From Linderina pennispora (Eukaryota > Kickxellomycota > Kickxellomycetes > Kickxellales > Kickxellaceae), in assembly GCF_002104995.1 (NCBI RefSeq), contig NW_024468367.1, forward strand, positions 1 through 29,993: a stretch of DNA of 29,993 nucleotides, in the 5' to 3' direction. This document shows, in pieces, positions 2,443 through 13,373 of this stretch (the stretch's first letter is position 1; the number at the start of each line of letters is the position of its first letter). The translations under genes and the position numbers were made by a program. The notes beneath the pieces are model-generated. The model had not been told where the DNA came from. It did not search any database and worked only from the letters and a program-made list of their open reading frames with translations.

Positions 2443-2470
2443 CTAGACTTGTCGTGTCTGCAATGCGAGC
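2443..2470 (-). repeat. Helitron H3 3' terminus with decayed hairpin
   Basis: CTAG at 2443-2446 is separated by 9 nt from a hairpin position (2456-2461 with 2465-2470, loop 2462-2464). That is exactly the spacing seen at the H1 and H2 ends. The distal arm GCGAGC matches H2. The other arm, GTCTGC, now pairs with two wobbles and one mismatch, so this is the oldest or most decayed of the three ends. Confidence 0.65.
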
Positions 2471-2974
2471 TCAGCTAGTCGGTAAAGCTTAGATGGTCGG
2501 TAATGTGGCAGAGAATCTGCCAAAGAGTTTCACGGCAGATGACTCTTGCGTAGTCAGACGTATCCATCGAGTAGTTGCTGATGCGCATCACCGAGTCAAG
2601 CCCTGCATCAGGGTATGTCATAGCTGGCAGCCACGAATATTAAATAATAGAATGTAAAAGGGGGCTTGTAGGGAAGTCAGAATATGTAGAGGGGGCGAGG
2701 GATTAGAAAAGGCAGATAGCGCAAGAGGGACCCCATTTATATATAGGATATGTGCTGGCCAGCAAGCCAACAGTTCCAAGCGTGAGCACCGAGGATAAAG
2801 AAGTTGAGTGATTCATTTATTGGGTTGCTGGACCTACAAAATGAAGGAGCGAAGACAAATGGCGCTTTGATATGTGGTTCCGAGTTCGATTTTACAAGTG
2901 CTTTTAAGGCATATATTTGACACCTCAGGATCTGAATCCATCGGCCAAAGGAGAGGATATTATTTTTAGGTGTT

Positions 2975-3003
2975 CACAGAGCGAGTCACGCATACTCGCT
3001 GTG
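2975..3003. repeat. subterminal hairpin near the H3 5' end
   Basis: CACAG/CTGTG (2975-2979 with 2999-3003) and CGAGT/ACTCG (2982-2986 with 2994-2998) form a 10-bp stem with a 2-nt bulge and a 7-nt loop. The corresponding region of H2 (near 6347-6360) keeps the GAGCAAGTCACT-like half but not the second arm. Confidence 0.5.
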
Positions 3004-3088
3004 AGACTCGAAACTGCGTGAATCCCTCCAACCATCCAAAAACGCTCTAGCGGACAGTCGGACGCGATTTGGACTATAAGATCTCATA

Positions 3089-3116
3089 CTAGAAATACTC
3101 TGCTCGCGATGCGAGC
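3089..3116 (-). repeat. Helitron H2 3' terminus: hairpin, 9-nt spacer, CTAG
   Basis: GCTCGC (3102-3107) pairs with GCGAGC (3111-3116) around a GAT loop. Nine bases later on the minus strand comes CTAG (3092-3089), then T. H1 has the same arrangement with GCTTGC/GCAAGC, which is a compensatory C:G to T:A change that keeps the stem. A hairpin a short distance before a CTRR end is the hallmark of Helitron 3' ends. Confidence 0.85.
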
Positions 3117-3240
3117 TCGGCTGCTAGTCAGCATGGGTTGACACGTCGATAAGGGCATCACGGCGAACCGGTCATTTGAACGTGTCGGATGGTTGTTGGT
3201 GCAATGTCGATCATGGACATCTCCCATCTTGATGGCCTGC
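3089..3240 (-). ncRNA. candidate Fanzor guide-RNA scaffold (fRNA/omegaRNA region)
   Basis: This is the 152 nt between the Fanzor stop codon and the 3' end of H2. In TnpB and Fanzor systems the guide RNA scaffold is transcribed from the region overlapping or just downstream of the nuclease gene up to the transposon end, and the guide is read from the flank. This stretch has the right position and strand, and contains the 3102-3116 hairpin and a nearby imperfect palindrome at 3122-3134. The assignment is positional inference; the hairpin alone is also explained as the Helitron terminator. Confidence 0.35.
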
Positions 3241-5851
3241 TCAGCGTAGGCGCTTCAGCGCTGGCTCGCTGCTGCTGGCAACAGAATCGCCTGCTGCTGC
3301 ACGCCTCTTGCGCGGGTTCTTTGTTGCAGGGGTGGTGCCAGAAGTATCGGCAGCAATGGCCGTAAAGCGACGGAACCGTTCAGGAATACTGCCTGAATCA
3401 CAGAGTGACTGGAAAATGAGTCTGAAGTTTAGAACTGCTGCGATATCGCGGTTCAAGAGCCGAGACGAATAGGCTCGCCTGTATTGTGCCATGGCCCGCT
3501 TACATGACTCGCTTGTACAGCGGAGAAGGCCATGGCACTTCACAGTTGGGTTCTTCGATCTCTGGTAGGGCCGCGGATTGGGGACATGCCGGAATGTCTG
3601 CAGTGACTTATCGCAGCAGAACGGGCACACCGACGATGTCCGGAATTCGTCGATCAGATAGACTTCAAAGCCATGGTGCTTGAACTTGTCGCGCCATCCC
3701 TTGCCACGAATCGGCGCATGGTGCCGGGCCATCGGCGCACTCCAATTGCCCATGATCAGCACTGGATCTGGACCAAACTTGCTCCGGAGTTTCGCGGCAA
3801 GCCTGTGGTCTGCACGGGCCTGGTTCATGAATGAATCAAGGCGCAGCTTGCGGTGAAGCGGGTACACCTTGGGACTGGTCCCGACACCCGGATGGGCCTT
3901 CCAGCGCCTCTGATGCTGCTTGTTTGACTTAGTGGGCTGCTGCTCTAGTAGCCTTCGCGCTGTCATCGTGTTGGCATAAAATGGTGCTAGGACACACCGC
4001 ACAGATGCACGGGCAGCAATGTAGGCACGGAATTTTGCTGGGCTAAGGGTCCGGCAGCAGTGCTTGGAAAGCTCTGCCTCTGCTCTGCGGACAGCATCTT
4101 CTGGGACTTGATCCTTTGTAGCCCGACGAATCCTGTCATAGTGGCGCAGCTTGAGCTCCTTATTGCGCTGCTGCCGTGTGTAGCGGTAGAGCATTCTCTC
4201 ACCCTCTTTCCCATTGCTGCTATTTTCGTGCATCATGTATAGCAAATCGCCCCGACCTGGATCGATGAATACACAGCGGCCTTTCAGATTCTGCAGCTCT
4301 GGCTGTGGGATCTGGTGGATATAGCGACAGTCAGCTATAGTATTGCCTCTCACAGCACCACCTCCTGCAACATCGCCTGTAGCATCGCCTCCCACAGCAT
4401 CGCCTGTAGCATCGCCTCCTGTAGCATCGCCTCCTGTAGCATTGCCTCCTGTAGCATCGCCTCCCGCAGCATCGCCTGTAGCATCGCCTCCCACAGCATC
4501 GCCTCCTGCAGCACCAGCCTTAGGTACCTTGTCTTGTAACAAAATGCATATCGTTACACCATCTGTTGTCGCCATTCCGTGGAATTTTCTATCACCATGC
4601 GCCTTAAATGGCTTCGATGTTAGATCTGCGACCCGGCCCCACACATCCCACACAGGTTGTGTGATCCCTTGGACCGGGTCGTGTGCACAGACTGGGGTGC
4701 TGGTGCATATGCATTGTTAAGTGCTGCAACAGTGTCTGCTGCTGCCGCCGATGCAGCAGCAAGTGAATCAGCCGCTACTGCTGCAGTTGCTGCAGTGGCC
4801 TCTGTTGCATCTGATGGCATCTTCGCTGCTTCGCGTGCAGCCTTCTTGGCCAATTTTTCGCCCTTTTCTGCTGCTTTCCTTGCCTCTGTTGCTGCCCTCT
4901 TTGCTGCGTTGATCTTGGTAACCTCCTCACGGGTTTTCGAAATAAACACCTGCTTGATTATTTGCTTGTCTAAGCGCACATGGCCTGGGATCCATGATGT
5001 CCGCAGAGGCAAGCATTGGGGGGAGACTTGCCAAGCTGCTCATTCTCAATAAGCTGGCATAGGCGAATGTATGCACGCAGGTGCTTAAGTGGATTCACCT
5101 TGGCATCATAGTATCGGCTGTCTTTGGCGAATCTGTACTTGGCATCATAGGCATTAAGGACTGGTGCCAGCTTGTTGTAGATTGCAAGCATCGGTGGGGT
5201 GAGCACACTGAGATCAGGGTGTCTAGAGGCAACTGCCTGGCGGAGCTTCTGTGCGGGTGTATAGATACACACTTGACATGCATTATTGAACTCAGCCTTG
5301 GACACATTGCCCATTGTACTGTGCAGTGTGTTTTTGCGGCTGCGAATATCAATCAATTTGGCCAGAATCCGCTGTAGGCAACTGCCATAGTGCAACACAA
5401 TGTTGTTCTTGTATGCTGTCATCAGCTCGGTATCCACGTATGTCGCTACCTGATTCATTTCACGTACGCCATGTAGCTCGATATCGCCATTATGCAATAG
5501 ATAATCATAAATATGATATCTAACTACACCACCGAAATCTGCGCTCGACAGTTCTGACCTGTCCTTCCGGTTGACGAAATCCTCGGCAGATATGACAGTC
5601 TTCGCCTTCAGGTTGCGATAAATAAATAAATAAATGGAACGAAAAAACCCCTTTTTCACAAATATTGCAGGGTCAAAGGCATCATCGTCAGCTAGTTGAT
5701 GGAGTAATATCCATCGTGCAAGCATGTATGTATGCTCTTTGATGATATTGACGCTGTGTACAAATTGCTCTAGGCGAGGCAACATAGAATCACGGAAGCC
5801 AATACCACCAAGTGATGTCTTTATGACAGTAGTACTGCGGGTAATATCCAT
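3241..5851 (-). CDS. Fanzor (TnpB-like RNA-guided nuclease), three frames, RuvC motifs intact
   Basis: Read on the minus strand in three segments: 5851 to about 5020 (N-terminal, helical), about 5020 to 4685 (PLRTSWIPGH motif, then an Ala/Lys-rich stretch), and about 4680 to the stop near 3241. In the last segment, counted from codon 4653-4651, I see TDGV (residues 30-33), the first RuvC Asp in FIDPGRGD (D131), the Glu in LIDEFRTS (E336), a zinc ribbon (C343, C346, C379, C384) and the third acidic residue in NRDIAAVLN (D403). Having the Glu just before the zinc ribbon is the rearranged RuvC-II layout described for Fanzors. The first frame break fits loss of one C in the C6 run (5018-5023). 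The second lies near the GTGTG at 4681-4685 and fits a 2-nt change. A (GGDAT)n insert separates TDGV from RuvC-I. Family knowledge: Fanzors are guided by an RNA made from the element's 3' end. Identity is secure; whether this copy makes active protein is not. Confidence 0.85.
4354..4515. repeat. 15-bp minisatellite inside the Fanzor gene
   Basis: About ten degenerate copies of a 15-bp unit related to GCATCGCCTCCTGTA. On the minus strand it stays in frame and encodes repeats of Gly-Gly-Asp-Ala-Thr (residues about 48-100 of the last segment), between the TDGV motif and the first RuvC aspartate. Units of 15 bp keep the frame, so this looks like replication slippage tolerated in a surface loop. 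Confidence 0.85.
5618..5634. repeat. (ATAA)n microsatellite in the Fanzor N-terminal segment
   Basis: About four ATAA units, read on the minus strand as the hydrophobic run IYLFIY. It is in frame in this copy but could be a site of length variation. Confidence 0.7.
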
Positions 5852-6462
5852 TTGAGAAGTTCAATAGGCAAGTAAGAAGAGAAATGATGCTGTTCAGTTT
5901 TGCTGTATTGCGTATGCATAGCATTAAGAACTTTTTATTAAAAATGATCTGGCTTGCATGGTTCTTGGGGCCCTTAGCACTGATACAGTCTCTTGAATCA
6001 GTCTATACATACTGGGTCCGTTGTGACCCAAATACTATCGCTTACGCATGTTCATAAGACAAATTAATTTATAAAATAAACCCACAAATATTGCATAACC
6101 ACCAGAAGAGCTATATGGACTTATTCAATAGGTGCTCATAGATAAATATCCTAAGAGTATTGCGCAGCCAGTGATGACCACCATGATGACGCCATGGAAG
6201 TTATCAGGTCGACCGATACTGAGAGCAGCTCTTGCGCTGAACCAATGGAGATATCCAGTAGAGACCTGTGATCACTACAACAATAACTTGTCACCCTGGT
6301 TTCACCGGTGAGGTCAGATGCCGCACAAAACCAAAGGGAGTTTACAGAGCAAGTCACTCAAACCCGTATTGAAGCTTAAGAGTTTTTTTTTAACCAATTA
6401 AATAATTTCTAGCGGACGGTCGGACACTTTTTGGACTATAAAATCTTATATATAGGTAAAGA

Positions 6463-6545
6463 CTAGCAGTCTCATGCTTGCGATGCAAGCGCACCTCTAT
6501 GTGTGCCAAACGCTGTTTGTCACACATTTCGGTGGAGACTGCTAG
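6463..6545 (-). repeat. Helitron H1 3' terminus folding as a three-way junction
   Basis: The terminal CTAGCAGTCTC (6463-6473) is perfectly inverted at 6535-6545 (11 bp). Inside are hairpin 1, GCTTGC/GCAAGC (6476-6481 with 6485-6490, loop GAT), and hairpin 2, ATGTGTG/CACACAT (6499-6505 with 6521-6527), which continues after one mismatch as a 5-bp CAAAC/GTTTG stem with a 3-nt loop. Every strong complementarity in the 83 nt nests into one fold that includes the terminal CTAG. Confidence 0.75.
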
Positions 6546-6559
6546 CGCCTGCAGCGGGC

Positions 6560-6703
6560 TGAATACATAAATAAATACAAATTTGTTAATGAATATAATA
6601 GGTTTTAATATAAAATATTTAATAATTTTAATAATATTAATAGTATAAGGTAGAAATTAGTATTAGGTAATAAAAATATATTTAATATAAAGTTAAAATT
6701 AAA
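6560..6703. other. very AT-rich subterminal stretch of H1
   Basis: A stretch composed almost only of A and T, between the helicase stop codon and the 3' structure of H1. No gene is present. The contrast with the GC-richer host genes fits old, mutated transposon sequence. Confidence 0.6.
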
Positions 6704-6997
6704 CTAAGAAAATATCTCCTTATAGACTATGTTTTTAGTCTTAGGTTCACCATCAGGATAATGCATAGTTGACCCTACTATTATCTTTAGATTATTAAAT
6801 GATTGTATGCAAGAAAGTGCCACATAGAGTTGACCATGAGTAAAGACAGGTGATGGAAGGTAAAGCCCAACTCGTTCCATTGTTTGACCTTGGGCCTTAT
6901 TTATAGTCATTGAGAAGGCAAGGTGGATTGGGAACTGGCATTGGTGTAGAACAAATGGTAATTGCTGGTGCTTAGTTGTTAATATCATTCGGGGTAT
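6704..6997 (-). pseudogene. Helitron PIF1 helicase, C-terminal fragment (cut off by the gypsy insertion)
   Basis: The minus-strand reading continues the helicase cut at 11803, starting in PRMILTTKH after the target duplication. It holds the last helicase motif, including SMTINKAQGQT and the following GQLYVALSC region, and ends at TAG (6706-6704). Removing the retroelement with one GTAT copy rejoins the frame exactly. Confidence 0.85.
6994..6997. repeat. target-site duplication, left copy (GTAT)
   Basis: GTAT directly precedes the 5' LTR; the same four bases directly follow the 3' LTR at 11803-11806. Confidence 0.8.
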
Positions 6998-7134
6998 TGT
7001 AGTGTATGGGCACGTGAGACTAGCCACGAGGGAACAAAGCACACCCCCAGGACGCACAGATAAAAGGCCGTATGTGACAGAGATACAGATTGTTTCCACA
7101 GGTTTATTCTTTTACTCAAAATACAAACACGTCA
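6998..7134 (+). repeat. 5' LTR, 137 bp
   Basis: Starts TGTAGTG and ends CGTCA (TG...CA termini). Base-for-base identical to 11666-11802 by eye. It contains CACGTG near its start and an A/T-rich GATAAAAGG that may act as a TATA-like element. Confidence 0.95.
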
Positions 7135-7135
7135 T

Positions 7136-7148
7136 TGGTAGCATCACC
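7136..7148 (+). promoter_or_regulatory. primer-binding site
   Basis: TGGTAGCATCACC begins one base after the 5' LTR. TGG complements a tRNA 3' CCA, and TGGTAGC is the start seen in elements primed by initiator tRNA-Met. The exact tRNA is inferred from only the first seven bases. Confidence 0.65.
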
Positions 7149-7181
7149 TTATTATTCACCTTATATACAAAAGAACGTAAC

Positions 7182-8132
7182 ATGGCTCGAACGGCCATCG
7201 GAGAACTGCCAACGTACTCAGGCAGGAATGATGTGAGGACATTCCAGGAATGGCTAGCAATGGCTACGGATGCTTTCTTGGAGGATAATATCGCAGATAG
7301 CAATCGTCAATTGGCTTGCCTACGCCGTCGCGTAGAGGGGCAAGCATTGGTAGAGGTCACCCTACACCGTCAACAGGAAGCACTAACACAAGGGGAACAA
7401 GCAATCCTAGGCTGGCAACCGGTCCACAACATCGAGGACTTTAAGCGCTACTTTGCACCGAAATTCGCAGCTATCACTGTGGACGATACCCTGCGCGAGA
7501 GACTGCGTCAACTGAAACAGACTGGCACTGTATCCGAGTATATCACTGCCGAGTCAAAGATCGTCGGAACATACCAGATGACTGACGAGGAGAGGCGTTA
7601 CGACTTCATCCATGGGTTACAACCTAAGCCGCGTGAATATGTCCGTGCACAGGAGCCCCAGTCATTCACTGAGGTGATCGCAGCAGCCCTCAAGTATGAG
7701 TGTATCCGGGGTGGTAAGACAGCCACTGAGGATAATGTGGAGAGAGTCGAAACACCGATGGCAGTGCCACTAGATCCCAATGCCATGGAGGTGGATGCGA
7801 TTCGCATGAATACTATACCCACGGGGACCCCCATGGTCACAGCACCAACACATGGCTTCTCTATCAGCGATATGAAACAACTCATGGAGGTCGCTGCTAT
7901 GTTCATGGGACACCAGTACAGCAATACGGGAGGGCCGAGTTATCGCAAAACCCCTCGTGGTGGACAGGACCGTCTCATTACACTCGTTATCAATGGACAG
8001 GCCATGCAGGTCAATATACGCCAACCATGGGTACGCCAATACCTGCGTGATAACCACCTATGCTACCGGTGTGGTAGTGCGGACCACCAATCTCGTCACT
8101 GTAGCCAGGGAAAAGCCGCTGGTCAGCAGTAA
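7182..8132 (+). CDS. Gag polyprotein
   Basis: 316 codons from the ATG at 7182 to TAA at 8130-8132. I chose this ATG because the upstream part of the open frame is LTR and leader. The N-terminal and central parts look like a Ty3/gypsy capsid (retrotransposon gag domain, including a WQPVHNIEDFKRYFAPKF-type segment). The C terminus has one CCHC zinc knuckle, CYRCGSADHQSRHC, the nucleocapsid motif for RNA packaging. No internal stop. Its last codons overlap the start of the pol frame and contain the frameshift signal. Confidence 0.92.
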   Translation: MARTAIGELPTYSGRNDVRTFQEWLAMATDAFLEDNIADSNRQLACLRRRVEGQALVEVTLHRQQEALTQGEQAILGWQPVHNIEDFKRYFAPKFAAITVDDTLRERLRQLKQTGTVSEYITAESKIVGTYQMTDEERRYDFIHGLQPKPREYVRAQEPQSFTEVIAAALKYECIRGGKTATEDNVERVETPMAVPLDPNAMEVDAIRMNTIPTGTPMVTAPTHGFSISDMKQLMEVAAMFMGHQYSNTGGPSYRKTPRGGQDRLITLVINGQAMQVNIRQPWVRQYLRDNHLCYRCGSADHQSRHCSQGKAAGQQ

Positions 8133-8150
8133 CTAGCCATGCTGCTGACC
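8108..8150 (+). promoter_or_regulatory. -1 programmed ribosomal frameshift signal between gag and pol
   Basis: Slippery heptamer GGGAAAA (8108-8114), phased G|GGA|AAA in the gag frame (the X XXY YYZ pattern). A 6-nt spacer follows, then a perfect 9-bp stem, GGTCAGCAG (8121-8129) with CTGCTGACC (8142-8150), around a 12-nt loop that contains the gag stop. Slipping back one base enters the pol frame, which is open from 8105. Element, spacing and frame all agree. Confidence 0.85.
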
Positions 8151-11100
8151 CCATGCTGTTCGGTAATGCCAATAAATTATCGGACCACCTTTCGGCTAAG
8201 AATGCACAGACAGTGGAGACAGAGGAGGCCAAAAACGCAGAGAACAGTAGCGAGTGCTCAAACAGTATGTACGAAACTGCCAGTGAGGACCACGAGGCTG
8301 TCCACGAGAATGATGAGCGCCGACGTAAACGGGAGTATGAGCCACAAGACAATGATCGCGAGAAGCGCCTACGTGTCAGCGAACCAGAGATAGTCACAGT
8401 GGGCAGTATGGCCTCAGATAGTGCACAGCGCCCCTTTGTACAGCTCACAGTGAGGAAACAAATGATCCAGGCATTGCTAGACTCGGGTGCTTCGAAGTCC
8501 TTCATTTCCCCTAGCTGTGCTCAACGACTCAATCTGCCCCTGCAGTGTGGAGCCCCCTTGATCGCAAGGACAGCTGATGGCAAGGAGACACAAGTGGAGC
8601 AAACGGCATGGCTGAGATTCACCTGTGGGACTGAGACAGTCGAAGTGCCGGTATACGTCTTTCCGTTGGGAGATGTCGATATCATCTTAGGATATGACAC
8701 GTGGCAGAAGTTCAATATCCAACCCGGCTATGCAGGTGACCCATGGCAATGGACAGTAGCAGGACAGACAACACCGATGCAAACAGTACTACCCCCAGCT
8801 CCCTTCCTAATGAGTCGTCAGCAATTAGCACGAGCATTGAGGAAAGCACAAGTCGATGAGTGCTACGCAGTACAGATCGACAATACAGGCATAACCCAAG
8901 GCGAGGTCAAACCCATTTGGAGATCACTCGACCAGCTCGTTGACAAGTATGAGGATGTCTTTATTGACCACGGATATTCAGTACATGCCAAACACACGGT
9001 TCAGCATGTGGTAGATACGGGTAATTTGGCACCAGTAGCCAAAGCAGCATATAGGATGGGCGAAAAACAGTTACAGGAGTTAAGGCGACAGCTCACGGAT
9101 CTACAGGCTCGAGGTCTCATCCAACCCTCATGCTCTCCATATGCAGCACCGATCTTATTCGTCCAGAAGAAAGATGGTTCTATGCGCATGTGCTGCGATT
9201 TTCGTGCACTGAATAAGGCTACAATCAACGACCGATATCCATTACCACGGATCGACGACTGCCTTGACCGCCTGGGTGGGGCTAAGTACTTTTCGCGCCT
9301 AGACCTAGCGCAGGGATATCACCAGATTCCGATGCATCCAGATTCGGTCCAGAAGACTGCGTTCACAACAAGATATGGTGCCTTCGAATGGCTCGTTATG
9401 CCATTTGGGCTCAAAGGCGCACCTGCAACCTTCCAACGATATATGAATACGGTCCTACATGAGTATTTGGACCAATGTGTCGTTGTGTACCTGGACGATA
9501 TCCTCATTTTCTCGAAAACTAAGGCTGACCATGAACGCCATGTCCGACAAGTGCTAGAGACGATATGCAAACACAAGCTGGTACTAAAGCGCAGCAAATG
9601 TGCCTTTGGACTCACATCGACAGAGTTCTTAGGCCATATGGTCGGACATAACAAAATTGCACCTTGCCAAGACAAAACGGCAGCAATCCATGACTGGCCC
9701 TTACCTGAAACGGTCACGCAGCTACGGTCATTCCTTGGTCTCTGTAACTACTACCGCTGATTTGTTCCAGGATATGCTGCTATCGCCAAGTCGATGTACT
9801 CATTAGTCAGTGGACCAGCGGGCTGTAACCATACTGTGGAGTGGACAGCAGAGGCATGTCATGATTTCAAACGGCTAAAAGAAGCACTTACAGCGACGCT
9901 CACACTCCGTGCAGTAGACTGGACGAAACCTTTCGTAATCGAGACAGATGCCAGTAACTTTGCACTCGGTGCAGTACTATCCCAAGAACATGATGGCACT
10001 TGCTATCCAATCACGTTTGAGTTGAGAACGTTGACAGCAGCAGAACGCAACTACACGGCAAGGGAACGAGAGATGCTAGCGATTGTCCACGCTCTTCGGA
10101 TATGGCGATACTATGTCGAGGGACATGCCATCCGCATTGTGACAGATCATAAAAGCCTCGAAAAGATCTTCACAGATAATGCACTCGAAGGTCGTCTTGC
10201 ACGCTGGATAGAGGATATTCAACACTTGAGCCCGACAATTATGTACCGCAAGGGTGCTGATAACATACCTGCAGATGCCCTATCCCGACGCTATGATCTC
10301 GCAGCTATGCAGACGACGCCATTAGATTCGAGGGGGGATGATTCCATGGATAGCAGAGAGGAGGTCGCAACCAACGACACACGAGAGGACATGTCTGAAG
10401 AGCCACTGAAACACCTGCACAGAGACACACGAACATTTCGGATGATACACGGCCAGTTATACCATATGTCCAAGGCGGAGGTACCAATTCCATATGTACC
10501 TGCCACAGACTGGGAGCACCTTGTAGGGCAGTATCATCAGCAACTTGCGCATATGGGTGTCACATCTATGCTCAGTATCCTGCGACCACGCCACTGGTGG
10601 CCAAAAATGGAGTTGACAGTCGCATGAGTTCTAAGTCGCTGTCCAGCATGCCAAGTATGTGGCAAGGGGAAGAAACTAGAGGCGCCAGTCACACCGTTTA
10701 CACCAGTAGATAGGCCATTCGTACATTGGGGCATTGACTTTATTGGCCGATTACCAAAGACGCCAAACGGTAACCGCTGGATCCTACTAGCTATTGACCA
10801 CACAACCAACTGGATAGTAGCCAAGGCCGTCCCAGAGGCAACAGTCAAAGTGGTTGCCGACTTCATCCACAAGGAGATCGTACTCACATATGGCATGCCC
10901 AAGGAAATTATCTCAGATCGTGGCCCACAGTTCCGAGCCGACCTAGTCCGCGAATACTGCAAGAGACAGAACATCCAGCAGTGTTTCACATCGGCATATC
11001 ACCCGCAGTCAAATGGCAAAACGGAGCGTGCCAATGGAACAGTCGGTGCAGCTTTGAACAAATATGCCTTCAAGAACAAACATCGCTGGGACGAGTACCT

Positions 11101-11665
11101 TGAGACAGTTATCTGGGCCACACGCATACGCACCCACAGTGTCACCAAGTTCTCGCCATTCCAATTGGTATATGGTACCAACCCAAGACTACCAACTGAT
11201 GTCACCCCGCCAGCAGTCCCGAACAGTAAGACGGACAATACAGATCGATATACCCAACAGCTTCGCAGATTCGACTTCCTCAAAGGAGCTAGAGCCCAGG
11301 CTACGGAAGCCCAAGTTGCCGCGGCCTACAAGGTAGAAGAGCAATATCGACAAAGAGGAGACTACCAACGATTTGAGATCGGTGACTGGGTCATGGTCAA
11401 GAACATGAAGAGACAAAAGTTCGACGCCAGATTCTACGGGCCATTCCGGGTCAAACGCTGTGGCCCCTTCTACACATACAAACTATCCTTCCCCAACGGC
11501 GAAGAACTGACAGAAATGATCCATAACGAACGACTACAACGTGCAACAATTGGTGAGCTGGTACTGAAAGCGATGTGGTCGAAAGCATCGATAGGGATAC
11601 GAAAAAAGGCAGAACTGAATGAGGACGTTGACGAAGAGACACATCCACAGATAAGAGGGGGATGA
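8111..11665 (+). pseudogene. Pol polyprotein (PR-RT-RH-IN), two in-frame TGA codons
   Basis: One frame, -1 relative to gag, from the slip site to TGA at 11663-11665, directly against the 3' LTR. Order: aspartic protease (LLDSGASKSF, about 8470-8510), reverse transcriptase (LDLAQGYHQ, then YLDD near 9490), RNase H (FVIETDASNFALG and TDHKSLE), integrase zinc-binding HHCC, integrase core (GIDFIG Asp near 10737, ISDRGPQF Asp near 10918, GKTERANG Glu near 11027) and a GPF/Y-like tail. Two TGA codons interrupt it: 9758-9760, just after the RT domain in the NYYR motif, and 10625-10627, inside the zinc-binding domain. Family alignment expects Arg at the first and is compatible with Arg at the second; CGA to TGA explains both. 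Catalytic residues are otherwise present. Without readthrough this copy makes only Gag plus PR-RT. Confidence 0.9.
11653..11662 (+). promoter_or_regulatory. polypurine tract
   Basis: AAGAGGGGGA ends three bases before the 3' LTR, where plus-strand DNA priming is expected. The intervening TGA is the pol stop codon. Confidence 0.75.
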
Positions 11666-11802
11666 TGTAGTGTATGGGCACGTGAGACTAGCCACGAGGG
11701 AACAAAGCACACCCCCAGGACGCACAGATAAAAGGCCGTATGTGACAGAGATACAGATTGTTTCCACAGGTTTATTCTTTTACTCAAAATACAAACACGT
11801 CA
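11666..11802 (+). repeat. 3' LTR, 137 bp
   Basis: Identical to the 5' LTR at 6998-7134 and followed by the GTAT target duplication. Confidence 0.95.
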
Positions 11803-11806
11803 GTAT
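11803..11806. repeat. target-site duplication, right copy (GTAT)
   Basis: Directly follows the 3' LTR and matches 6994-6997. Confidence 0.8.
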
Positions 11807-13330
11807 AAATACCCTGGTACCATAAGCAGCACAAGTTATAATTTCAGCATCAATCACATGGGGCTATAACCTATGGCATATAAGTCGTGTGCCATTACAT
11901 AGACCATGGGCAGAATCTAGGTTACATAGGAGTATGATTGGTGCCCCTACTTTGAGGCGGAGGTGATGAGGTGGTAGGGTTCCACCAACATCTAGTGAAT
12001 TAAGAAATTCAACTGGGAATAGCTGCTGGGTTTCTGTAGTTGCACCATCAGTATCTACAATTGAGTCAGCACTATAGTAGTTAATGATAGTGCATGGTAG
12101 ATGGTCAATGATCTTGTTATTTAGATCATTAACTGAGGCATTAGTTGGTGACAGGATGCTACGATTGACCATATAGTTGGCTTGATTATATTGATATGCT
12201 AAATTAGTATAAATTGCATTGATCAATAGCTCAACATTATCTGAATCTGAAGGTATTACAGTACCCACAGGCAATTTAATTTGGTCATATTCATCGCTGG
12301 GTAGCCTTCCTTCCCCAACTTGAAGTAGCCAGTCAGCAAATTGGATAGCTGTACAATCCTGGGCATCAGCCCTAAGTTGGAGTCGCATATTGGTAGTAAG
12401 GTGTAGAATATGTGCATGACTCCATAATGGAGATTGGCAAAGAGCTGCATCAACCATTTGAGCTCTATTTCCCTTTGGAATGACTGGGAGAATTTGGCGG
12501 AAATCACCACCAGCTACTACTACCTTACCTCCAAAAGGCCGATGCTTAAGGGCTGGATCAACAGAACATATTATATCTCGCAGTGTGCAATCAAGGGCCT
12601 CAAATGTATGCCGATGCATTATTGGTGCCTCATCCCAAATAATCAGCCTTGTGGCCTGGAGCAATGATGCCAAGTTAGTACCAAGGGAGATATTGCATGT
12701 TGAAGTACTATCTACAATTAGTGGTATCTTAAATGTAGAGTGAGCAGTTCAACCACCAGAGAGAAGCATAGCAGCTATGCCAGAGGAGGCAGTTGCTAAG
12801 GCAATTTGGCCTTGGCTCCGAATATGGGCAAGGAGAAGCTTATACAGGAATGTTTTGCCACTTCCTCCAGGGCCATCAAGGAAGAAGAATGTTGCTGTGG
12901 TAGTAGGTAATCCTTCTACAGTAGACATAATTGTATTGTAGGCTGCTAACTGCTCAGCATTAGCCATACGAAGCATTTGTTCAGTGCAATCAGCAAGCTC
13001 AGATTGATTAAATGATAGCTGCTCACTAATTAAATAGTTTTCAGTACTATCATCATTAGCATGTTCTGGTATTGGAACTGGCATGCCAGGGTAGTTGCTA
13101 AGTGAGCGCCCAGAGTGGAGAAGAATAGAGTTAATCTCCCTAAGGGCACTGTTAATAGCAGATTGCTCAGCAGCTTCCTAATTAGCTGTATGCATGAGGG
13201 CTCTATATAATAGGTCATCAATTAGGCTTGTCTGGTGCTGTATCCACAGTGCATATGGGTTCACTGGGTTTTCTTGAGCAAGAATAGTGGCAAATAAATA
13301 TCGGAGTTGGTGACCAATCTGGACTTGTTT
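11803..13330 (-). pseudogene. Helitron PIF1 helicase, N-terminal and central fragment, three stops
   Basis: Minus-strand coding sequence of a Helitron-type PIF1 helicase that begins abruptly near the H1 5' end with QIGHQLRYLFATIL, typical of the start of the helicase region and not of a whole Rep-helicase protein. Motifs: Walker A GPGGSGKT (about 12850), GGxTAHSTFKIP, Walker B-like IIWDEAP (about 12640), VVVAGGDFRQILP and TNMRLQ. In-frame stops: TAG 13180-13178, TGA 12751-12749 and TAG 11866-11864. Each is one C-to-T change from CAG, CGA and CAG respectively; the CGA case is supported by the conserved Arg of GGRTAHS. The reading resumes at 6997 beyond the retroelement. Role in the intact element: 5'-3' unwinding during rolling-circle transposition. 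Confidence 0.88.
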
Positions 13331-13361
13331 TGGACTATAAAATCTTATATATAGGTAAAGA

Positions 13362-13373
13362 TATAGGTAAAGA
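13362..13373 (-). mobile_element. displaced first 12 bases of Helitron H3
   Basis: The minus strand reads TCTTTACCTATA, the family 5' terminus up to the A^T where H2/H1 inserted; the continuation TATGAGATC is at 3088. It is preceded by A (13374), as Helitron target preference requires. It produces the visible duplication of the 12-mer at 13350-13373. Confidence 0.8.

Follow-up and report, generated by a model that had tools for sequence, protein, structure and literature searches.

In the genome of the fungus Linderina pennispora, a gene for a Fanzor RNA-guided nuclease lies within a Helitron unit (H2) that directly follows a second Helitron (H1) of the RepHel type, and, judged from their sequence, the two form a composite canonical Helitron. 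The locus occupies the minus strand of a stretch of 29,993 nucleotides (contig NW_024468367.1, positions 1 to 29,993; hereafter the window), and its relatives were sought throughout the genome (26.2 Mb in 222 contigs). A Fanzor in a Helitron is already known; the canonical RepHel–Fanzor composite is a new variant. A preliminary description of the window had presented H2 as a non-autonomous Helitron with a Fanzor gene, its nuclease domain catalytically complete, as cargo. Its core, a Fanzor in a Helitron, holds, and the label of non-autonomous cargo fits the solitary copies of the unit; in the window itself the unit is the second, downstream member of a tandem with RepHel, and its gene is broken. 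The features of the composite, numbered from the first base of the window, are these:

3089–6462, minus strand: H2, the Fanzor-bearing Helitron unit, with its 5′ end at 6462 and its 3′ end at 3089
6383–6462, minus strand: initial 80 bp of H2, with which the H1 copy on C157 (L068) also begins, base for base
4970–5851, minus strand: N-terminal part of the Fanzor, REC-side region, frame 1, with an ATG at 5851; in the intact copy L002 this region aligns, over query residues 7–302, to Parasitella Fanzor1
4620–5012, minus strand: middle part of the Fanzor, frame 2, an Ala-rich stretch and the motif LPLRTSWIPGHV, joined to the neighbouring parts in intact copies
3241–4653, minus strand: C-terminal part of the Fanzor, frame 3, with the RuvC residues D131, E336 and D403 and a C4 zinc ribbon
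3089–3198, minus strand: last 110 nt of H2, the presumed extent of a putative omega-RNA scaffold; low in diversity, covariation support absent
3089–3116, minus strand: 3′ terminus of H2, with hairpin, 9-nt spacer and CTAG
3071–3088, minus strand: flank read by the putative guide, with TA at 3088–3087 and then the guide in its presumed register; here this is the 5′ end of H3
6463–13361, minus strand: H1, the RepHel Helitron and tandem partner of H2, with an internal deletion and a long terminal repeat (LTR) insert in the window copy
6463–6490, minus strand: 3′ terminus of H1, with hairpin, 9-nt spacer and CTAG, directly adjoining the TC of H2
11864–12673, minus strand: PIF1-like helicase fragment of H1 (PF05970, 6.2e-42; PF21530, 6.5e-18)
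6704–6990, minus strand: C-terminal helicase fragment of H1 past the LTR insert, a weak match (E 7e-4, under the family cut-off) in a region that the H1 alignment of L068 spans

Read on the minus strand, H2 opens with TCTTTACC (in a longer reading, TCTTTACCTATATATAAG) and ends in the hairpin GCTCGC-ATC-GCGAGC, nine nucleotides and CTAG, followed by T, which is the Helitron1 arrangement of a 5′ TC and a 3′ hairpin before CTRR. The 3′ end is as first described. The start is not, since the base before the TC at 6462 is G, with which the CTAG of neighbouring H1 ends, and the A-preceded TC is that of H1 at 13361. A DNA search of the genome with H2 gave 67 matching stretches (40 of 324 first-look candidates scored), 19 of which were near full length at 91–100% identity, the window copy and some haplotype pairs among them. 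These 19 start and end no more than 5 bases from the same two points, and the Fanzor lies within the repeated unit. With up to 3 mismatches the pattern of the 5′ end was found at 142 places; with up to 2, that of the 3′ end was found at 261, a count taking in every family that has such an end. For each, 100 places were listed, and the corresponding backward-read controls gave 0; these copy numbers exclude chance as the source of the unit. A further search with the Fanzor protein returned 117 matches (90 of 336 candidates scored). The H2 Fanzor unit is a real, multi-copy element family. Many copies (L003, L008, L020, L022, L109 and others) have a variable number of TCTTTA hexamers right after the target A. 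Membership of H2 in Helitron2, for which asymmetric terminal inverted repeats of 8–15 bp were sought, was rejected: the longest complementarity between its first 40 and last 110 nt is 5 nt, a length equalled in 435 of 500 shuffles.

The H1 3′ end (up to 3 mismatches) occurs eight times in the genome, and none of these occurrences is solitary. A Helitron 5′ end begins at the very next base in all eight, with its first bases altered in three, and seven lead into Fanzor-type sequence as far as they were read (120 bases each for C171 and C157:1115020; the copy on C112 is of the deletion type). Small contigs are often second haplotypes of larger ones: the window contig, C23, aligns to C2 at 97.6%, and other alignments pair C174 with C24, C173 with C112, C203 with C157, C158 with C2 and C161 with C1. 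Two haplotype pairs with common left flanks, C2/C23 and C157/C171, are among the eight H1 ends, which therefore represent about six independent loci. The H1 copy L068 has Helitron_like_N and PIF1 domains, an HUH motif (GLPHAHILL) and a KYLFKYVYKG motif, so that the H1 half carries the HUH and helicase parts of a RepHel protein, and H2 alone is without them. Beyond their identical first 80 bp, L068 H1 and the window H2 are unrelated.

The window also records where the composite went. The 12 bases before H1 (13373–13362) are TCTTTACCTATA and those after H2 (from 3088 downwards) are TATGAGATCTTATAG; joined, these outer flanks make one Helitron 5′ end, the usual 27 bases with two differences. The H1–H2 composite therefore sits as a unit in an older Helitron, H3, having entered its 5′ end at TA|TA with no duplication. 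On the other haplotype of the locus (C2:649032–649716; L047, L067) the Fanzor unit has been lost and an H2-like 5′ end runs into H3, apparently by recombination between the similar 5′ ends of H2 and H3. The remaining features of the window are as follows:

13362–13373, minus strand: first 12 bp of H3, the left side of the site receiving the composite
2443–3088, minus strand: remainder of H3, an older Helitron without a Fanzor, with its 3′ CTAG at 2446–2443
6998–11802, plus strand: LTR retrotransposon within H1, Gypsy-like by its reading frames, with a 4-bp duplication, ATAC

The relatives of H3 are old, with 58 matches that are mostly 70–81% alike (DNA search, 40 of 60 candidates scored). One H3-like Helitron, L075 (C79:251205), lies in the opposite orientation within the 5′ end of another Helitron. 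The LTRs of the retrotransposon are ~137–144 bp long and 98% alike, and next to L008 there is a solo LTR related to them. At C68:198243–198650 a Rep domain within an open frame of 1989 amino acids marks a second Helitron family.

Fanzor units also occur alone. The solitary L020 (C5) and the composite-borne L006 (C157) have left flanks alike at 75 of 81 host bases, and in a tree of 27 copies their Fanzor elements are sisters with support of 1.0. This pattern is explained if recombination between the 5′ repeats removed H1, and the two are likely allelic. Solitary Fanzor elements look derived from the composite and are probably the commoner form. Composite-borne copies occur in four places of the tree, as would fit a long-lived composite that sheds solitary units, but also repeated joining. 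Six deletion derivatives have lost ~1.1 kb, including the codons of D131 and E336, and are out of frame. Such deletion copies (L024–L028, L030 and others), which are ghost loci, have multiplied; their joint lies at a GCAGCAG microhomology, the 3′ block is kept and the 5′ end mostly kept. A role as dead-nuclease regulators was ruled out for the six read, in which the joint is out of frame and further frame breaks are present.

The protein identity is clear. Against solved chains, the 470-residue C-terminal piece (4653 to 3241) matched Parasitella parasitica Fanzor1 at E 1.1e-60 and the Spizellomyces punctatus Fanzor at 5.5e-33. The intact copy L002 matched Parasitella Fanzor1 (9cf0) at E 1e-83 in four aligned stretches from residue 7 to 819, with homology over the REC/WED, RuvC and zinc-ribbon regions. 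As previously described, the 470-residue piece carries D131, E336 and D403 and the four zinc-ribbon cysteines (343, 346, 379 and 384); it fits the defining Fanzor1 motif D-X(125-275)-[TS][TS]-XX-C4 zinc finger-RD given in the available part of PMC3627910, with DPG at the first Asp. Public protein relatives come mostly from Coemansia, with some from Mucoromycota (119 matches among 8000 scored candidates). A protein database search with intact L002 returned one match, low-complexity words being suspected of filling its candidate list, and a Pfam scan of the Fanzor gave solely a sub-threshold TNB match. The window gene is split over three frames (5851–4970, 5012–4620 and 4653–3241) and is therefore broken; several deletion copies share with it a frame break at one C-rich stretch. 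Uninterrupted Fanzor frames of 860–889 amino acids are present at 7 of the 30 loci fetched (L001–L030, about ten of them partial or deleted copies), L002, L003 and L008 included. The gene is single-exon in the H2 family and reads toward the hairpin end, the orientation first reported and likened there to TnpB geometry.

Changes in the coding sequence were compared among 20 full-length or nearly full-length copies, with the Ala- and Gly-rich repeats masked. Those common to at least two copies comprised 89 nonsynonymous and 103 synonymous changes (rate ratio 0.30), versus 194 and 94 among singletons (ratio 0.72; Fisher p 5e-6 for shared against singleton). We read this difference as purifying selection, in which the copies that left descendants kept the protein, and the term cargo understates it.

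On the 3′ side of the element, 67 distinct Fanzor-type ends were compared. An exact CTAG closes 63 of them, followed by TA in 62 and by AA in one; TA follows the four ends with an altered CTAG as well. Another five Fanzor-type ends, with too short an upstream sequence for the automatic label, are followed by TA in four cases and by TT in one (L116); left out of this count are L044 and L060 (repeats of L025 and L008) and L166 (haplotype partner of L121), all with TA. On the left, mechanical parsing covered 50 of 54 5′ ends, H1 and H2 pooled with other types, and the adjoining base is A in 42 of them. Variant TCTTTA repeats are taken to have misled the parsing in most of the eight others; L026 and L094, both with G, are taken as real exceptions. 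The insertion site is mostly (T/C/A)A|TA. Helitron1-like insertion between A and T without duplication agrees with the empty allele L066 save for one substitution, with exceptions at L002 (5-bp repeat and filler) and at L003 and C53 (target deletions). As a candidate target-adjacent motif (TAM), the A|TA site fits those known for Fanzor1, namely CATA for SpuFz1 (available part of PMC10432273) and ATN for the Parasitella enzyme (available part of PMC11423790). With the guide read after CTAGTA, a presumed register, ATA would precede it at most native sites. Diversity (pi) is 0.035 in the last 110 nt, 0.065 in the 5′ untranslated region and 0.10 in the 45 nt directly upstream, a low-diversity 3′ block in keeping with a putative guide-RNA scaffold and transposon end. 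No Rfam family scored above its cut-off; the sole match, isrG at 4722–4800 on the plus strand, reached 24 bits versus a cut-off of 100 and was taken as chance.

Taken together, we consider it somewhat more probable than even that the composite, its mobilisation by RepHel and guide-led cutting jointly account for these data. RepHel would read past the internal H1 3′ end and so move the H1–H2 pair, and would also mobilise solitary H2 units and deletion derivatives, which may arise partly via recombination of the two 80-bp 5′ repeats. The Fanzor would bind an omega-RNA derived from the element's 3′ end, with the flank following CTAGTA as its guide, and would cut an unoccupied allele at the TAM-like ATA and guide sequence, whereupon repair would copy the element in. 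If these steps hold, replicative transfer of single-stranded DNA (ssDNA) would be partnered by RNA-guided homing, as it is in IS200/IS605.

Several observations weigh against this explanation, and two alternatives draw on some of them. The RepHel copy examined, L068, has an interrupted frame; the flanks of just one composite insertion were read together as a single site; and the host flank of L020 and L006 (93%) is less alike than that of other haplotype pairs. H1 and H2 might be separate Helitrons that repeatedly came to lie in tandem by self-insertion or as concatemers, with no transposition unit involved. There are reports of tandem and self-inserted Helitrons from fungi (available part of PMC5148889), the four places of composite-borne Fanzors in the tree, some weakly supported, suit repeated joining, and the bases right after the internal CTAG differ at three of the eight loci. 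We nevertheless regard this as quite improbable: none of the eight H1 3′ ends stands alone, H1 end and order are constant each time, both outer flanks of the window composite come from one site, and H2 inserts at A|TA, which the joint CTAG|TC is not. For the 3′ region, equally low diversity is seen in 30% of the other 70-nt windows of the element, most of them coding; the region folds no better than shuffles (z −0.4 over 152 nt, −0.8 over 252 nt); and no convincing covariation was detected (RNAalifold covariation term −0.16), eight of the ten both-side changes coming from L174, a misplaced row that represents no 3′ end. TA is also common among H3-like Helitrons, present in 9 of 14 hand-grouped loci, with A in second place in 11 of the 14 versus 67 of 68 in the Fanzor group (Fisher p 0.015; the H3-like group was sorted by hand with duplicates merged and L071/L076 (TT), L072 (CA) and rows with non-Helitron ends excluded, while the Fanzor group keeps some haplotype pairs). 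TA is therefore mainly a Helitron preference, and its use as a Fanzor-specific mark is weakened. Broken-frame deletion copies gave a shared ratio of 0.27 over the N-terminal part (6 copies), perhaps from inherited variation; with the same low ratio and no near-fixed differences they do not discriminate and were set aside as a neutral control. Helitrons capture genes readily, and the Fanzor might be passive cargo, the ends and RepHel doing everything and the gene persisting because young copies have not decayed. The commonness of TA in H3-like relatives and the multiplication of out-of-frame derivatives speak for this; we think it unlikely, given the per-site predominance of synonymous changes among those that copies share, with singletons nearer neutral, and the presence of long intact frames at 7 of 30 loci.

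The homing part of the favoured explanation, in which RepHel copies the element into A|TA, the Fanzor cuts the empty allele at the TAM ATA and repair copies it across, amounts to an RNA-guided homing drive on a rolling-circle transposon; we put it forward tentatively, as doubtful by itself. If it is true, the empty alleles that survive opposite filled ones should mainly be those without TAM or guide match. The genome yielded four loci at which one haplotype is filled and the other empty. At L008/L066 the empty allele reads …GCAAACATGAATATG and the filled one …GCA, the element, then TACATGAATATG; the putative guide matches the empty allele with 0 mismatches in 22, and TA reads AA (GCAAA). The empty allele of L003/L093 likewise matches the guide with 0 mismatches over 22, and TA reads TT (GTATT); the insertion has an exact 3′ end, and ~1.2 kb of left flank is absent from the filled or extra in the empty allele. 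Between C53 (L181, L179) and C46 (L177) the 3′ end is again exact and the filled allele is ~160 bp short on the left; the empty allele keeps TA and has three guide mismatches. L002/L062 (C174/C24) is not a clean A|T insertion: it has filler of ~20 and ~17 bases and carries GTCAC as a direct repeat of 5 bp, so that the empty allele L062 has no matching site. All four empty alleles thus lack an intact putative ATA TAM with guide match, and that two changes fall exactly in TA is the more striking part of the pattern. Elsewhere, L007, L017 and C175 were filled in both haplotypes and gave no additional empty allele. Four empty alleles are few at 2–4% haplotype divergence, at which a change within ~19 bases is not rare, and they are therefore a lead and not proof; the filled C53 copy is 5′-truncated and cannot encode the nuclease, and the left-side target deletions at L003 and C53 and the filler with repeat at L002 tell in the same direction. 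The TA after CTAG might also be borne by the element or made at insertion, which would leave the altered empty alleles (AA, TT) uninformative on loss of the TAM. We give this possibility limited credence, well short of even: of the three empty sites that could be located, two (L066 and L093) depart from the filled allele at precisely the TA, as it would have them, whereas in the window's nested insertion and at L167 the TA is contributed by the 5′ end of the target element itself, and the C46 empty allele retains it.

The composite and the haplotype pairs raise this element above another Fanzor in another transposon. One genome unites a canonical Helitron transposase with a Fanzor in a single unit, in many copies, some with intact genes and others dead derivatives that can serve as controls; filled and empty haplotypes together with a defined A|TA site turn the homing idea into a sequencing question. 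How RNA-guided cutters help jumping genes spread is thus directly testable in the L. pennispora element. A parallel is IS200/IS605, in which an HUH transposase (TnpA) accompanies an RNA-guided nuclease (TnpB), with a guide from the 3′ flank and a short fixed target motif. By its anatomy the composite resembles this pairing; unlike IS200/IS605 it has a eukaryotic RepHel with a helicase, and two complete element ends in tandem.

By analogy with IS200/IS605, Saito et al. suggested in the available part of PMC10432273 that Fanzors promote ssDNA transposons. No report of a canonical RepHel–Fanzor composite, or of a Fanzor in Linderina, appeared in the literature searched, a scope outside which most subscription papers and bioRxiv fell. 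Helitron1 elements with another accessory gene occur in other fungi (available part of PMC12730594). The composite and self-inserted FoHelis of Fusarium are fungal Helitrons with tandem or duplicated termini, and differ in being Helitron2-like, with no Fanzor noted in the available part of PMC5148889. Spu-1/SpuFz1 of S. punctatus is a fungal Fanzor1 with many copies, including partial and ghost loci, and its CATA TAM resembles the (H)A|TA site here; it differs in its 30–33-bp terminal inverted repeats, its putative TA duplications and in that no transposase was found between the repeats (available part of PMC10432273). Parasitella Fanzor1 (PDB 9cf0–9cf3), the closest solved relative over most of its length, has a TAM, ATN, that fits ATA; it differs in an extra FRI domain that binds cyclophilin, and the term Helitron does not occur in the available text of PMC11423790.

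As the preliminary description acknowledged, the association of Fanzors with transposons is not new in principle. Bao and Jurka (2013; available part of PMC3627910) described the Fanzor1 families CRe-1, CRe-2 and CRe-3 of Chlamydomonas reinhardtii in non-autonomous Helitron2 elements, and both Saito et al. (2023; available part of PMC10432273) and PMC10711439 (available part) repeat the Fanzor–Helitron association. The CRe families resemble H2 in placing a Fanzor1 in a non-autonomous Helitron whose ends are common to an autonomous family and in their many internal deletions, and some Chlamydomonas insertions have direct repeats and extra sequence, which the L002 insertion resembles. They differ in being Helitron2, with a 5′ hairpin, asymmetric terminal inverted repeats, insertion after TTTT, multi-exon genes and frequent 5′ truncation, and a RepHel–Fanzor fusion is not described in the available part of PMC3627910. 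The L. pennispora element, by contrast, has canonical TC…CTAG ends, an A|TA site and a single-exon gene, and stands in tandem with a RepHel.

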